Positions 3,501 through 59,975 of a stretch of DNA of 64,000 nt are shown piece after piece. The position numbers and the translations under genes were made by a program. The DNA comes from Vitis vinifera (taxonomy: Eukaryota; Streptophyta; Magnoliopsida; Vitales; Vitaceae). The notes beneath the pieces are model-generated. The model was given only the letters and a program-made list of their open reading frames with translations. It did no database searches and was not told the origin of the DNA. The stretch's first letter is position 1, and every line of letters starts with the position of its first letter. The DNA is taken from NCBI RefSeq assembly GCF_030704535.1, contig NC_081815.1, positions 3,053,001 to 3,117,000 on the forward strand. The letters run 5' to 3'.

Positions 3501-6500
3501 ACACTGCCGCTCACGTGGCCTTCATATTTATCCATTTCTTGGTTTTTCTTCCTTCAAGCCCATAGAAAATAAAAATTTACCAATTTTTTTTATTAAGTAA
3601 TTCCATATTAGTGGTGGATTAAATGTGAAAGAAAAAACAAAGTGTCATCAATAATAAAATTAAATTAAATTAAAAAATCATAATAAAAATTAACAAAAAT
3701 ATAAATAAAACAAAATCATACTTCCAAATGTTTTTTTTTTTCCATTCTAAAAAAATTTAAACTACTTTTAACATTTCTCTCAAAATTTCTCTTTTTCAAT
3801 AATTCAAATTTGAATTAAATCATTTTTTGACCTTACAAAAACTAAGGCCCTATTTAATAACTATTTAAAAAAATAGTTTTAAGAACCAATTTTTTAAAGT
3901 TGTTTTACGATGTATTATAAAATAAAATCTATTTAAAAATTTAAAATATTTTAAAACTATTTTTAATATTTTTTTGAAATAATTTTTATATTTAATACTT
4001 TATTTTTAATCATTTTATGTATAATTATTTGTTAAAATAATCTTAAAAAAATAAAAATAATTAAAAGATATTTTCTAAAAATACCATGTTTTCTTATTAA
4101 ACATATTTTCATTTTTTTTTTTTTTATAGAGAATAGAAAACTGTTTTATAAAACAATTTCCAAATAAACCCCCTGAGCATTAAATTTAATTATGATAAAA
4201 ATGAAATAAAAATATTATAATTAAATAATAAAATACTACACTTAATTTCTTCTTTTTTTTTTCTTTTTTTCTATCAATAATTGTTGAATTATATTCAATG
4301 TCCTTGAACATTATGAACAAGCAATGAGTCACATATGATAGATTTAAATATTATATAAATGGTTAGTTGAGCAAATGGTCTTTTTTTTTTCTCTAGACAC
4401 GTCATGATTTTTAAAATACTATTAACTTAAACAATTTCCAAGATTTATGTACTATGGTTTTAATTAAATGTTTGTCATATGCACCGACGACAGTGATCAA
4501 GAAAAATCCAAACATATTATACAATATGATATTGATCTAGATGATGAATAAGAAAGTTTATGTGATATAGGCTTTGAAATAACTTTTCTGTCTTCCACTC
4601 CATGAAGCAATCAATGTGAATTTTGAATATTGAAGAAATAATCAATGTGATGAGTTGGCTAATGCAACGTGCATTATGAAACATAATTATAACTTTTCTC
4701 CTATAAATTTGTATACTTTAATCATATTTTCCGTACTTTCATACATATATTTTTTAATAATAGCTATGTTTATCGGAGAAGTCATGTTATATTATTGCTT
4801 TATAGATTGCTAAATGGGATGACAATATAGATATTAAAATTTTTAGTGAAATAAATTATTACTAAATTATTTTCAAAAAAATGTGGTTTCTCAATTCGAT
4901 AAAATTTGAAATCAACAAATAATAAGTCTTATAAATATTTGTCATGTGTCATGATATGTGACGAAATTTGAAATACTACAAAATTTAGTATTGCAAATAA
5001 TATTTAAAAAATACAATTAATAATGGTTAAAATTTATATATTTTAAAACTTTTCTATGAAAAAAAAATGATTGGAATGAGCTGAATGTAACATACAAAAA
5101 TACTTTATTAATTTTAAAATATTTTTTTATTTTTTATTTTTATTTTTTGCATATGTCATGATCACTAACTTACTTTTTATGGATGGTAAAGTGTAATTAT
5201 AACCTCCTTTTTAGGGTTGGCAAAGTGCCATTATCTTTTTCTTTAATCCATACTCATTATGGTATTGTCATTGTTTTATTCTTTACTGCACTTTTGTCCA
5301 CCATTTGTGAAGAACCTGCTGAAAGTTAAATGCTTACCTAACAAAGTTGGGAAATAATTTCAAATTTTGAATCTCACATGGCTGAAAGTGTTGAAAGATA
5401 CAAAGTATAAAAAGGGTTTGATGATTGATCACAATGTTGAACAAAGATGAGAGTGCTAATGTCCTCAATTATTGTTGTCTTCCCATTTTCATGACCAATC
5501 CCCTGGTTCTGCTCTTCTCCCTGGCCCCCTTTGGAAGTAGCAACATTTCTGCATTTCTTGCTTCTTTTAATCCAGCAAATATGAGGGGCCATTTCCTTAG
5601 CCCCACAAAGATACAAGCCCCATTGTAGGGATCTCCAACACAACCAAATGAATATGAAATAGGACAACTGATTGAAAGCCCTTGTCTCAAGATGCTGCTC
5701 ATTAAATGGCTCCTGCTCTTGTATTTTGACCTTCATCGAAATTTGAAGGCCGCTCGTAACAGTACAAAAGTATATTTTTTCAGTATCTATCGAGAAAACA
5801 TCCAATAAGATGACGTCAAGTACGTATTTCTAAGTCCTATCATTTGTATCTTTTGTACATTTTTTCAACTGTCAAAATCTTAGTATTTGTATTCAACGAT
5901 TCAGATCTTGTTTTCAATAGGTACCATTAAGGTGCCTTGTCGTTTCCCAATTTCAAAATGCTCAAAATTGAATTTGGGTCATCAAGCTCAAAGCCTCAAA
6001 CCTTACTAAAGACAAATTGCAAGTGCCCTGCTAAATGTATGGTTACCTGAGAAAACTACAAGAAGAAATACAGTGGAAATGGGGCAATGGTGGACCAAGT
6101 TAAGCTCAGAAGCTGTTGTAGGTAACTCACGGAGTTAAATGTTCACTTGTTTTTTTGCTCTTAGAGTAGCTGGAAAGATTCAAATATTACTTTGAATTTC
6201 GGGAGTAACTTGCAAATTTGCATCTTCATGTCTGACTTTTAAGGCAACAACTAAAGTGACCAGATAAGTCAAATGGGCAGGTGGGTTTCCAAATACAGCA
6301 CTGTAATGGCTTAATTGTGGGGCCAAAAAGGATGGTTTTAACTTTAAACTTAGCTTGGCCATGGGCATCAGGCATTTGAAATTTGTACTATGCCCAAATG
6401 GTAGTTGTGGTGACTCACAAACCTCCTTCAATGGCATTCGCTCTAATTACTCAAAATTTTCAGCCTTGGAGGGGAGCTTGGTGTCAGTTTTGGGATTGGG

Positions 6501-37651: not shown

Positions 37652-37952
37652 TTAGGTGTATTTAAAGTATTTTGTGTTTAAAAAATATTTTTAAATTTTT
37701 TAATATTTAAAAAATTATATTATTCAAGTATTAGAAATGGTAAATTTTCTAAAATCACTATTTAATGCATTCTAATTTATTTAAAGAAAACACTCAAAAG
37801 GGATTAGTTGAGTGTTTAAAAACTTTTTCGAAAAAGACTGTTTAGTAAATAAAATCAAGAGATAAGGGTAAAGTGAAATCAAGCACTCGAAGGGCACACT
37901 GGTAATTAAATAAGCCTTTTGAAAAATGTAGAGTCGGTCATCCCATATGAGC

Positions 37953-38043
37953 AATGCGCCCCCGGCGCATTTTAGTAGAGCTTTTCCCCCCAAAACCCTA
38001 TTATGCTCTGAAACCCTAGCTCTCACGCGCATCTCTATAAATA
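37953..38043 (+). promoter_or_regulatory. Promoter of the snoRNA cluster: telo-boxes, TATA box and GC hairpin
   Basis: Two AAACCCTA telo-boxes lie at 37993-38000 and 38011-38018, followed by TATAAATA at 38036-38043. Telo-boxes are enriched in promoters of plant ribosome-biogenesis and snoRNA genes, often beside a TATA box. Just upstream, AATGCGCC and GGCGCATT form a perfect 8-bp inverted repeat around CCC (37953-37971). Transcription should start near 38,070 on the plus strand, before the first snoRNA at 38,326. Confidence 0.65.
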
Positions 38044-38325
38044 CAAGCCAATCAGTTCGAGCGTCACCGCCTCATGTAAATATTGGACTACTAGGGCTTA
38101 TGATCCGTTTCATACTACGATCTCGATTCAAGAACAAGAGGCGTTCCAAGAACTTCTTTAAGAATTTCCTCTCTTCATTTATGTTTCTTTCTCACAAAGC
38201 TCTTCACTTGGTTTGTTTTCTCAGTTGAAATGTTTGATCTTGGTTTTTTCTTGGTTTTTTTTCTTCTTTTTTTGTTTTTTTGTGCTTTGATTTGATCTGA
38301 TTTTATGAGTTTGAGAAGATGGTTA

Positions 38326-38425
38326 AGGACTGTGACGATTCGTGTGAAAGGTCTCGTTCGTCGTAAGGGCGAGTAGCTCGCCTTGCCGACTATTCTGATA
38401 TATCACCACCCATATTCTGAGTCCT
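38326..38425 (+). ncRNA. C/D-like snoRNA, structured, with two antisense stretches to 18S rRNA (copy 1)
   Basis: A terminal stem AGGAC (38326-38330) pairs with GTCCT (38421-38425). A C-box-like GTGACGA follows the left arm and a D box CTGA (38417-38420) precedes the right arm. AGGTCTCGTTCGT (38349-38361) is perfectly complementary to 13 nt of 18S rRNA (ACGAACGAGACCT). CACCACCCATA (38404-38414), just before the D box, is complementary to 11 nt of 18S (TATGGGTGGTG). By the D+5 rule the second stretch would guide methylation of the U before GGGUGG. Between them is a hairpin GTCG...CGAC with an inner stem ending GCGAG/CTCGC. A second copy lies at 39171. I do not recognise its established name. 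rRNA sequences are recalled from memory. Confidence 0.75.
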
Positions 38426-38504
38426 ATCTACGATCTACAAAATTCTCTTTGCTTTTTTCCGGATTTCATTTTCCGCATGTTTGCGTCTGTTTTTGGTGCT
38501 TTGA

Positions 38505-38591
38505 ATTGGCCAATGATTATAATTTTATATTAAGACAAGCATATGTCTGAAACAACTGTGTGGAACATCTAATCTTCTCTATGAGGCCAAT
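38505..38591 (+). ncRNA. U27: C/D-box snoRNA U27 (18S rRNA 2'-O-methylation)
   Basis: A terminal stem ATTGGCC (38505-38511) pairs perfectly with GGCCAAT (38585-38591). C box ATGATTA follows the left arm. An internal CTGA (D') is preceded by AGACAAGCATATG, which is complementary over 13 nt to the start of 18S rRNA (CATATGCTTGTCT). The fifth base upstream of the box pairs with the A equivalent to human A27, the known target of U27 in animals and plants. The terminal D box is a weak ATGA. It would act in the nucleolus with fibrillarin. Confidence 0.92.
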
Positions 38592-38636
38592 TTGTAAATT
38601 TTTTTCTTTTTCGATCGATCTGATCTGTTTTCATTG

Positions 38637-38733
38637 TATAAGTGCTGATGATGAAACAAAGGATACTTTGTAATGTATGAGAAATCATGATTACAACTAT
38701 ACCTCTACTGCCTTCCTTCTGAAGCTTCTTATA
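38637..38733 (+). ncRNA. C/D-box snoRNA guiding 18S rRNA (human A468 equivalent)
   Basis: Terminal stem TATAAG (38637-38642) pairs with CTTATA (38728-38733). C box ATGATGA is at 38648-38654 and D box CTGA at 38719-38722. The bases before the D box, CTGCCTTCCTT, are complementary over 11 nt to 18S AAGGAAGGCAG. The D+5 position falls on the A equivalent to human 18S A468 (yeast A420), a conserved 2'-O-methylated site served by U83 in human and snR52 in yeast. One mismatch follows, and then pairing resumes. The plant gene name is not certain. Confidence 0.88.
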
Positions 38734-38949
38734 ATCCTGCTTTTGTAAAATAATCATGTTTTGTTTTGTGTCTGATTGTTTTTAAAATTGAATCTGATTG
38801 ATTTCGAAATGAATTTGGATGGTTTGAACCCTAGATGTGTTCAAACATTAGGAATGCACAAAATGAAATTGTAGTTCTTGATTGATTCCATTTGAGGCAG
38901 CAAAACACCTCAATGATATGGATTTGGCTGGTTTATTGATTATTAGTGT

Positions 38950-39041
38950 GAGGGATCTCAAATGATGAACAGAAGCATAGTTCAAATGATAATCTTTGTG
39001 ATTAGAAATTGAATGTCTTTCGCTCCTATCTGATGATCCTC
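38950..39041 (+). ncRNA. C/D-box snoRNA guiding 25S rRNA
   Basis: Terminal stem GAGGGATC (38950-38957, one bulge) pairs with GATCCTC (39035-39041). C box ATGATGA is at 38962-38968 and D box CTGA at 39030-39033. The guide GTCTTTCGCTCCTAT pairs over 15 nt, with one G-U, to the conserved 25S segment ATAGGGGCGAAAGAC. The D+5 rule points to the second G of AUAGGGG. Neighbouring positions in this segment are methylated in yeast and human, but I do not recall this exact base as a known site. Confidence 0.85.
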
Positions 39042-39170
39042 ATATTATCTCTTCCTTGTTGGGTTGTAATTCCTGTATGCTTTTGAGTGATTGTTTTTCA
39101 ATATTCGATTTCAAATTTGGTATTTTTTTTGAATTGGATACGATACAAGTTTGTCAGGTTGTAGAAGGTT

Positions 39171-39268
39171 AGGGACTGTGACGAGTTGTGTGAAAGGTCT
39201 CGTTCGTCGTAATGGCAAATTTGCCTTGCCGACCATCCTGATATATCACCACCCATATTCCGAGTCCT
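39171..39268 (+). ncRNA. C/D-like structured snoRNA, copy 2
   Basis: This is a second copy of the RNA at 38326. The 18S-complementary stretches AGGTCTCGTTCGT and CACCACCCATA are unchanged. The inner hairpin differs: GGCA/TGCC replaces GGCG/CGCC, so a G-C pair has become A-U without loss of pairing, and the loop is remodelled. The D box has drifted to CCGA, and the terminal stem AGGGAC/GTCCT is kept. Unchanged guides together with compensating stem changes suggest both copies have been under selection as RNA. Confidence 0.72.
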
Positions 39269-39315
39269 GTCTAGAAAAATAAAATTTCGAAGTAATCTCA
39301 AATTTTTTTTTGTAT

Positions 39316-39397
39316 TGCCTATGATTATGAATTTTATATATAGAGGCCAAGCATACGTCTGAAACATTTGGTGTTGACAAACTAATCTTATGAGGCC
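39316..39397 (+). ncRNA. Diverged second copy of U27
   Basis: Same order as U27: C box ATGATTA, guide, internal CTGA (39359-39362) and terminal ATGA with a short GCCT/AGGC stem. The guide now reads GGCCAAGCATACGT. It pairs with the U27 target over only 8 nt, though this still covers the D+5 base. Together with the preceding RNA it shows that a block of two snoRNAs was duplicated within the cluster. It may be decaying or may have shifted target. Confidence 0.65.
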
Positions 39398-41058
39398 TAT
39401 TTAGTACTTCTGGTTTTTTCTTGGGTTTTTTTTTTCTTTTTCTTGTGATTTTTACTATGCTTGTCTTTTCTATCCTATTTGATCTCATGATGTTCTCTGC
39501 GTCTGCACCAGTGCAGTTAGAATCTGTTTGATGACTTACGAAACTGGTGTGAGACGTTACAGAACTAAAGGAGGGCTCTTGACTTTCTTTAGGCAATAAA
39601 ATCCAGATTTCAGTAATCTTTTGCTGGCATTTTTCCTCTTCGTATGCATTTTACTATTTTCTTTGACTTTCAACCATCTTCTTGATTTTCTTGATTTCAC
39701 ATAAGCATGAGCAAACTTCATGATTCCAAACAATGGAATTCATAGAATCAACTCATGCAAAATCAATCAAGGAAATTGTAGTTCTGAAGCTGGGAATTTG
39801 AGATAGCAACTCTTTTGCGTTTTGCCATTATCATTTGGAACCGAATCATAGCAGATGCTGGTATTGGGGTAACCAATGAGCTCACTGTCTATCTTGCTCA
39901 GGATGGTGCCTCATGATTCTTAAAAGTCTTTAAAGACAATAAGAATTCGAGGGTTGATAATGTACTGGTCAACTGGGTTTTGGCTTATTTCCACTGAGGG
40001 CGGCAGTGGAGAGATTCCTGTTGAGTTTTGGGTAGCAAATATGAATTAAATTCAAATTTAACCAAAATCAGAAAAAAAAAAATATTTTATATGAAAGTTT
40101 GCGACTTCAATAACAAAACTGAAATGTATTGAAAAGAAAGAAATCAAGAAGAATGATTATTATGTTTGATCGGAGGATGATGCCCATACACAAGTTCTGT
40201 GATTGGTTAGGCATGAGAAGGCTCTTTAAATACTTAATCTATGAGACGTCCTTTTTTGGGTGCATATTAGTTTTTATTGAATGCCTTGATTTTTAGTGAA
40301 GAATGATTATTATGTTTGATCGGAGGATGATGCCCATACACAAGTTCTGTGATTGGTTAGGCATGAGAAGGCTCTTTAAATACTTAATCTATGAGACGTC
40401 CTTTTTTGGGTGCATATTAATTTTTATTGAATGCCTTAATACTTTTAGTGTCATCAGTTGGAGATTGGAAGAATATATTATTAACAGAGCAGCCTAAGAT
40501 GTGGGGTAGTGACATGAGGGTTAGAAGTATTCGCTGAAGGGGTGTTGTTACTGTCGAAGAATGGTATTCTATCATCCCATGGAAGAGGTCATTTCATCTT
40601 AGATATGGCACAAGGTACCTCAGACTAAATAATCTTACTGTTGAAGCGGCTCTCTCTTCTGTTAGTCTGATGCTGTAAACCTTGGAGTTTTTTTTTGTTG
40701 TGGAAATGAAGGCCAAAAGAAGGGGAATGTGAGAGCGTCTTCGAGTCTCATTACTTTGATGGTGTAGTGGCAATGATATCAACTTCAGAAGGGATTAATG
40801 ATGTGATCCTCTCCTTTGTCTATAATGGTCACATAGCAGGCACATAGCTGCAGAATGCCTAGTTTTCCATAAGGATGGGGTGGTTGTTTGACTGGGAACG
40901 ACAATGTAAGAAGGAAATTCCCTCAGTCATTTTTTTTTAGCTCCGCGAGGTAATGGTTACCTGAAAAGTGGCTTATGTCCTAGCTACTGATTGCACAGCA
41001 ATACAATGGAGTTAAACTTTTGTGACTTGTTTGAAGTTTGGCTGCTATGTGTATATAA
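39398..41058. other. Downstream of the snoRNA cluster, no gene seen
   Basis: This region probably contains the end of the snoRNA primary transcript. A stretch at about 39,470-39,560 has snoRNA-like pieces (CTCA/TGAG ends, an ATGATG) but no proper D box and no rRNA match that I recognise. The 150-bp tandem duplication at 40148-40447 lies here. No convincing protein-coding frame. Confidence 0.5.
40148..40447. repeat. Tandem duplication, two copies of 150 bp
   Basis: Units 40148-40297 and 40298-40447 are almost identical up to the last 15-20 bases, and both begin GAAGAATGATTATTATG. They are non-coding. High identity implies a recent event. They lie just after the snoRNA cluster. Confidence 0.9.
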
Positions 41059-59901: not shown

Positions 59902-59975
59902 AGGATTGTAGTTCAATTGGTCAAAGCACGGTCCTATCAAGGTGGAAGCTGCAGGTTCGAGCCCCGTCAGTCCTG
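59902..59975 (+). tRNA. Organelle-type trnD (tRNA-Asp) copy in nuclear DNA, probably a pseudogene
   Basis: The 74-nt sequence aligns along its full length with the chloroplast trnD-GUC as I recall it: GGATTGTAGTTCAATTGGTC, the T arm GGTTCGAGCCCC and GTCAGTCC. About eight positions differ, nearly all C to T or G to A, the pattern left by deamination of methylated cytosine in nuclear copies of plastid DNA. The anticodon reads ATC instead of GTC, and the acceptor and anticodon stems are weakened. The next bases (TGATGGATCCAATAAA) also look plastid-like. Plant mitochondria carry a plastid-derived trnD, so that source is possible too. Confidence 0.8.

Follow-up and report, generated by a model that had tools for sequence, protein, structure and literature searches.

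The window, a stretch of 64,000 nucleotides of Vitis vinifera DNA, almost certainly contains a pair of paralogous genes for snoR32 (Rfam family snoZ43), a box C/D snoRNA of land plants that would guide the methylation of 18S rRNA at U1266 and A1330. Both copies lie on the forward strand (38327 to 38424 and 39173 to 39267) and matched the full covariance model RF00330 (snoZ43, positions 1-100) with 106.1 and 113.8 bits, respectively, far above the gathering cut-off of 43 bits. The initial annotation had described a duplicated RNA at 38326 and 39171 which it did not recognise. Its coordinates agreed with the Rfam bounds within one or two bases, and the Rfam scores together with a published table now place the RNA in a named, curated family, snoZ43 or AtsnoR32. 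Copy 1 possesses a box C (GTGACGA), a box D (CTGA) and a terminal stem (GGAC/GTCC); copy 2 has the same features except for its box D, CCGA, which is one base off.

In Table 1 of Hoeppner and Poole (2012, PMC3511168), AtsnoR32 is equated with RF00330 and its target is given as Am1327, in an older numbering, beside human Am1383. We adopt this equation on the basis of that table and of the two matching target sites. Elsewhere snoR32 is counted as one of seven C/D families conserved across land plants. The two grapevine copies share with snoZ43/AtsnoR32 the full-length match, both guides, the degenerate box D', the terminal stem and the two targets. They differ in a hairpin apex that is shorter than in the RF00330 consensus by 2 bases in copy 1 and by 5 bases in copy 2, and in the CCGA box D of copy 2. 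A tomato paper has an entry named snoR32_R81. No family of that name appeared among the matches of either copy in an Rfam-type search up to E 10, and the label may refer to another RNA than snoR32/snoZ43. The RNA, both of its 18S targets and the degenerate D' box have already been described in plants, and the finding is in this sense an ordinary one.

The guide geometry and the exact complementarity to 18S rRNA were established directly from the two copies. Both contain the 13-nt stretch AGGTCTCGTTCGT and the 11-nt stretch CACCACCCATA, each an exact complement of 18S rRNA and each identical between the copies, as the initial annotation had reported. The 18S targets were read in a public contig (L002) carrying part of an 18S gene, and the pairing was sought within a 145-nt piece of it. 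Numbering was fixed by setting the U before GGGUGG to position 1266, and the letters of the contig agreed at all five further Arabidopsis sites that were checked (1235, 1264, 1273, 1275 and 1330). The 11-nt guide upstream of box D (38404 to 38414 in copy 1, with box D at 38417 to 38420; 39247 to 39257 in copy 2, with the box D variant at 39260 to 39263) complements 18S 1264-1274. Counted back from box D, the fifth base lies opposite U1266 in both copies, in accordance with the U before GGGUGG to which the earlier reading had pointed. The 13-nt guide (38349 to 38361 and 39195 to 39207) complements 18S 1326-1338. It had been described as lacking a proper D' box, which holds insofar as the box is not canonical; the stretch is nevertheless followed directly by CGTA (38362 to 38365 and 39208 to 39211), in the RNA CGUA, a poor D' box when compared with the consensus CUGA. 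The D' box was placed by the D+5 rule, and A1330 is the pairing partner of the fifth base upstream of CGUA in either copy. When copy 1 was shuffled with its dinucleotide composition retained and compared with 8849 bases from two contigs, which comprise 18S as well as other sequence, complements of at least 13 nt were obtained in 23 of 2000 shuffles and complements of at least 11 nt in 291 of 2000. Against an 18S rRNA of about 1.8 kb, fewer such complements would be expected.

The methylation of both sites has been demonstrated in published work on other plants. In Arabidopsis, RiboMeth-seq revealed methylation of 18S U1266 and A1330, and Table 1 of Wu et al. (2021, PMC8053127) names SnoR32, with multiple gene variants, as the guide for both. 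The same paper notes that the SnoR32 guide for A1330 adjoins a degenerated box D', in line with the position of CGTA in the grapevine copies; its assignment of SnoR32 rests on complementarity. According to Table 2 of a 2024 review (PMC11542601), Am1330 was mapped in Arabidopsis, tomato and tobacco and has equivalents in human Am1383, archaeal Gm1064 and Am1297 of the alga Ostreococcus, the latter predicted from its snoRNAs. Since Am1327 and Am1330 are both placed beside human Am1383 (PMC3511168, PMC11542601), we take them to be the same nucleotide in two numberings. Um1266 is listed in the review's Table 2 for Arabidopsis and tomato and is not mapped in tobacco, and for humans, yeast and algae the table gives no counterpart (PMC11542601). 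We counted the absence of Um1266 from the tobacco, human, yeast and algal entries against the assignment of the two copies to snoR32 as guides of both sites.

The guide of human 18S Am1383 we take to be SNORD30. It resembles the grapevine RNAs in having the equivalent nucleotide as its methylation target. For this site the human column of Hoeppner and Poole prints snR53/RF00338 (PMC3511168).

In the proposed mechanism, the guide before box D would act together with fibrillarin and the core C/D proteins to direct the 2'-O-methylation of U1266, while the guide before the degenerate D' (CGUA) would direct that of A1330; the hairpin would form a variable element between D' and C'. Expression and activity of the two genes in Vitis vinifera are predicted from their sequences. 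The initial annotation had suggested that the longer stretch might serve rRNA folding or some other function instead of methylation. A chaperone role of this kind, similar to that of U14, would be consistent with a 13-bp complement lacking a canonical D' box and with the position of the two complements, which bracket 18S 1264-1338 and could keep this region open if bound simultaneously. It is nonetheless highly unlikely in place of methylation, given that A1330 falls exactly at D'+5, is methylated in three plants (PMC11542601) and has been assigned to SnoR32 (PMC8053127). A folding-only or otherwise novel function is therefore not needed to account for the longer stretch, and the suggestion found no support. 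The case shows that a non-methylating function should not be concluded from a degenerate D' box behind a guide. An additional folding effect alongside methylation is possible and is required by none of the observations. In one such scheme, to which we give only a small chance, snoR32 would not only guide methylation but also pair with the two sites of a single 18S molecule simultaneously, holding the intervening stretch open during assembly; competition between the hairpin and the D' guide for the final two bases of that guide would serve as a release switch.

A relationship to yeast snR4, whose bipartite pairing leads to cytosine acetylation in helix 34, was considered because the D guide (18S 1264-1274) overlaps the region bound by GS2 of snR4. 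GS2 is reported to pair to yeast 18S 1264-1271, or about 1268-1275 in plant numbering by our estimate of the offset, and both RNAs thus pair to an overlapping part of helix 34. In addition, GACTA at 38388-38392 of copy 1 could pair with the GS1 target (yeast 1286-1290, its letters deduced) with one wobble. In copy 2 this candidate reads GACCA and is not kept, and an exact search for the GS1-type complement AACTA returned nothing in 38311-38440 or 39157-39280. The second guide of the grapevine RNAs moreover has its pairing site some 50 nt closer to the 3' end of 18S and conforms to D'+5, so that their guides, unlike those of snR4, follow the D+5 rule. Lacking an exact GS1 complement in either copy, an acetylation guide was rejected and a plant counterpart of snR4 appears barely conceivable.

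Over the 98 columns of the Rfam-type alignment, 10 substitutions and one 3-nt gap separate the two snoR32 copies, while a plain global alignment yielded 86 identities, 9 mismatches and 3 gaps. None of the changes falls within the 24 antisense bases (p = 0.046 under random placement), which for two copies alone is weak evidence of conservation. Capital letters in an Rfam consensus mark strong conservation, and in that of RF00330 they make up all 11 positions of the D guide and all but one of the 13 in the D' guide. This is stronger evidence for conservation of the guides than their invariance between two copies.

The hairpin between D' and C' (38360 to 38390 in copy 1, 39206 to 39233 in copy 2) folds with -16.8 kcal/mol (z -3.80, 0 of 200 shuffles as good) and -9.9 kcal/mol (z -2.84, 3 of 200 as good), respectively. 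For the whole RNA, the fold of copy 1 exceeded that of the shuffles with a z of -2.44, and copy 2 showed a mild effect (z -1.54, 13 of 200 as good). The initial annotation had proposed that pairing in the hairpin is held while the sequence drifts. One compensated pair bears this out, as G-C at 38371-38379 of copy 1 aligns with A-U at 39217-39222 of copy 2; on the other hand, the G-U pair 38367-38383 of copy 1 is lost in copy 2 and the apical stem is shorter there. Read by eye, the Rfam consensus GGuAaauuguuUuugCC could likewise form the stem. Taken together, the two copies and the consensus are only suggestive of a maintained hairpin, as two sequences cannot prove covariation. The base of the hairpin shares two bases (38360-38361) with the 13-nt guide, so that the RNA cannot form all 13 bp with 18S and the complete hairpin at the same time; this overlap was also counted against the preferred assignment of the copies as snoR32 methylation guides.

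Given its box D variant, the activity of copy 2 towards U1266 appears uncertain. It is possible, though we consider it unlikely, that the second paralogue is in decay, its box D being damaged, and that only copy 1 is fully working, a situation which would be compatible with the assignment of both genes to snoR32. Besides the CCGA at 39260, the divergence of a neighbouring second U27-like copy argues for such decay. Its Rfam score, higher than that of copy 1 (113.8 vs 106.1 bits), argues against it, as does the lower-case letter with which the Rfam consensus prints the varying base, suggesting that box D varies within the family and that the variation is perhaps tolerated.

Both snoR32 genes belong to a cluster on the forward strand with the order snoR32, U27-like, U83, U80-type, snoR32 and diverged U27-like, and both would probably be processed out of a single polycistronic snoRNA transcript. 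The U27-like RNA at 38508 to 38588, with the guide GACAAGCATATG before a D' box CTGA, scored 35.9 bits with SNORD27 (E 0.001); as this lies below the gathering score of 52, it is missed by a default Rfam scan. It is followed by snoU83 (38643 to 38726, RF01179, 74.9 bits) and by a U80-type snoRNA (38951 to 39041, snR60/Z15, RF00309, 66.9 bits); RF00309 is listed as AtU80 in Table 1 of Hoeppner and Poole (PMC3511168). The second U27-like copy (39313 to 39399) aligned to 38505-38593 with 68 identities, 14 mismatches and 12 gaps. Its guide is altered to GGCCAAGCATACG, and SNORD27 gave no match in 39313-39399 up to E 10. This copy is probably in decay, next to a snoR32 copy that is well preserved. 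Since snoR32 and U27 recur side by side, the two were probably duplicated together. A U32.2-U27.2-U80.2 cluster of Arabidopsis, described in a paper on plant snoRNA clusters, probably represents the same arrangement, its U32 presumably corresponding to snoR32. General knowledge of snoRNAs is unchanged by these results, which add a snoR32, U27-like, U83, U80, snoR32 cluster from another plant.

Telo boxes are in keeping with the promoters of plant snoRNA clusters. A pattern search of 37800-38340 located two of them (AAACCCTA at 37993 and 38011) and a TATA box (TATAAATA at 38036) on the forward strand, and found no site II element. The region from 37993 to 38043 may thus act as a promoter upstream of the cluster. 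A weak match to snoR64a at 40261-40333 (25.2 bits against a cut-off of 45, E 0.47) could either represent another member of the cluster or have arisen by chance.

Searches with two snoRNA patterns against viral contigs and a distant-similarity search of plasmids with 38300-39450 gave no match. A single pattern match in genome contigs, in a Clostridia metagenome-assembled genome, was judged to be due to chance, its surroundings (5200-5600) being unlike the rest of the snoRNA. In the reverse complement of an IMG/VR contig (L003), the sequence, when compared with that expected of 18S rRNA, breaks off just behind GTTAAC, past approximately position 118 and three bases short of A1330, which might mark an intron. 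By the same comparison, L002 appears to depart from 18S at a point further downstream. Elsewhere in the window, 59902-59975 matched a tRNA model with 35.3 bits (cut-off 29) and six marked columns of non-standard pairs, and possibly represents a pseudogene or an odd tRNA.
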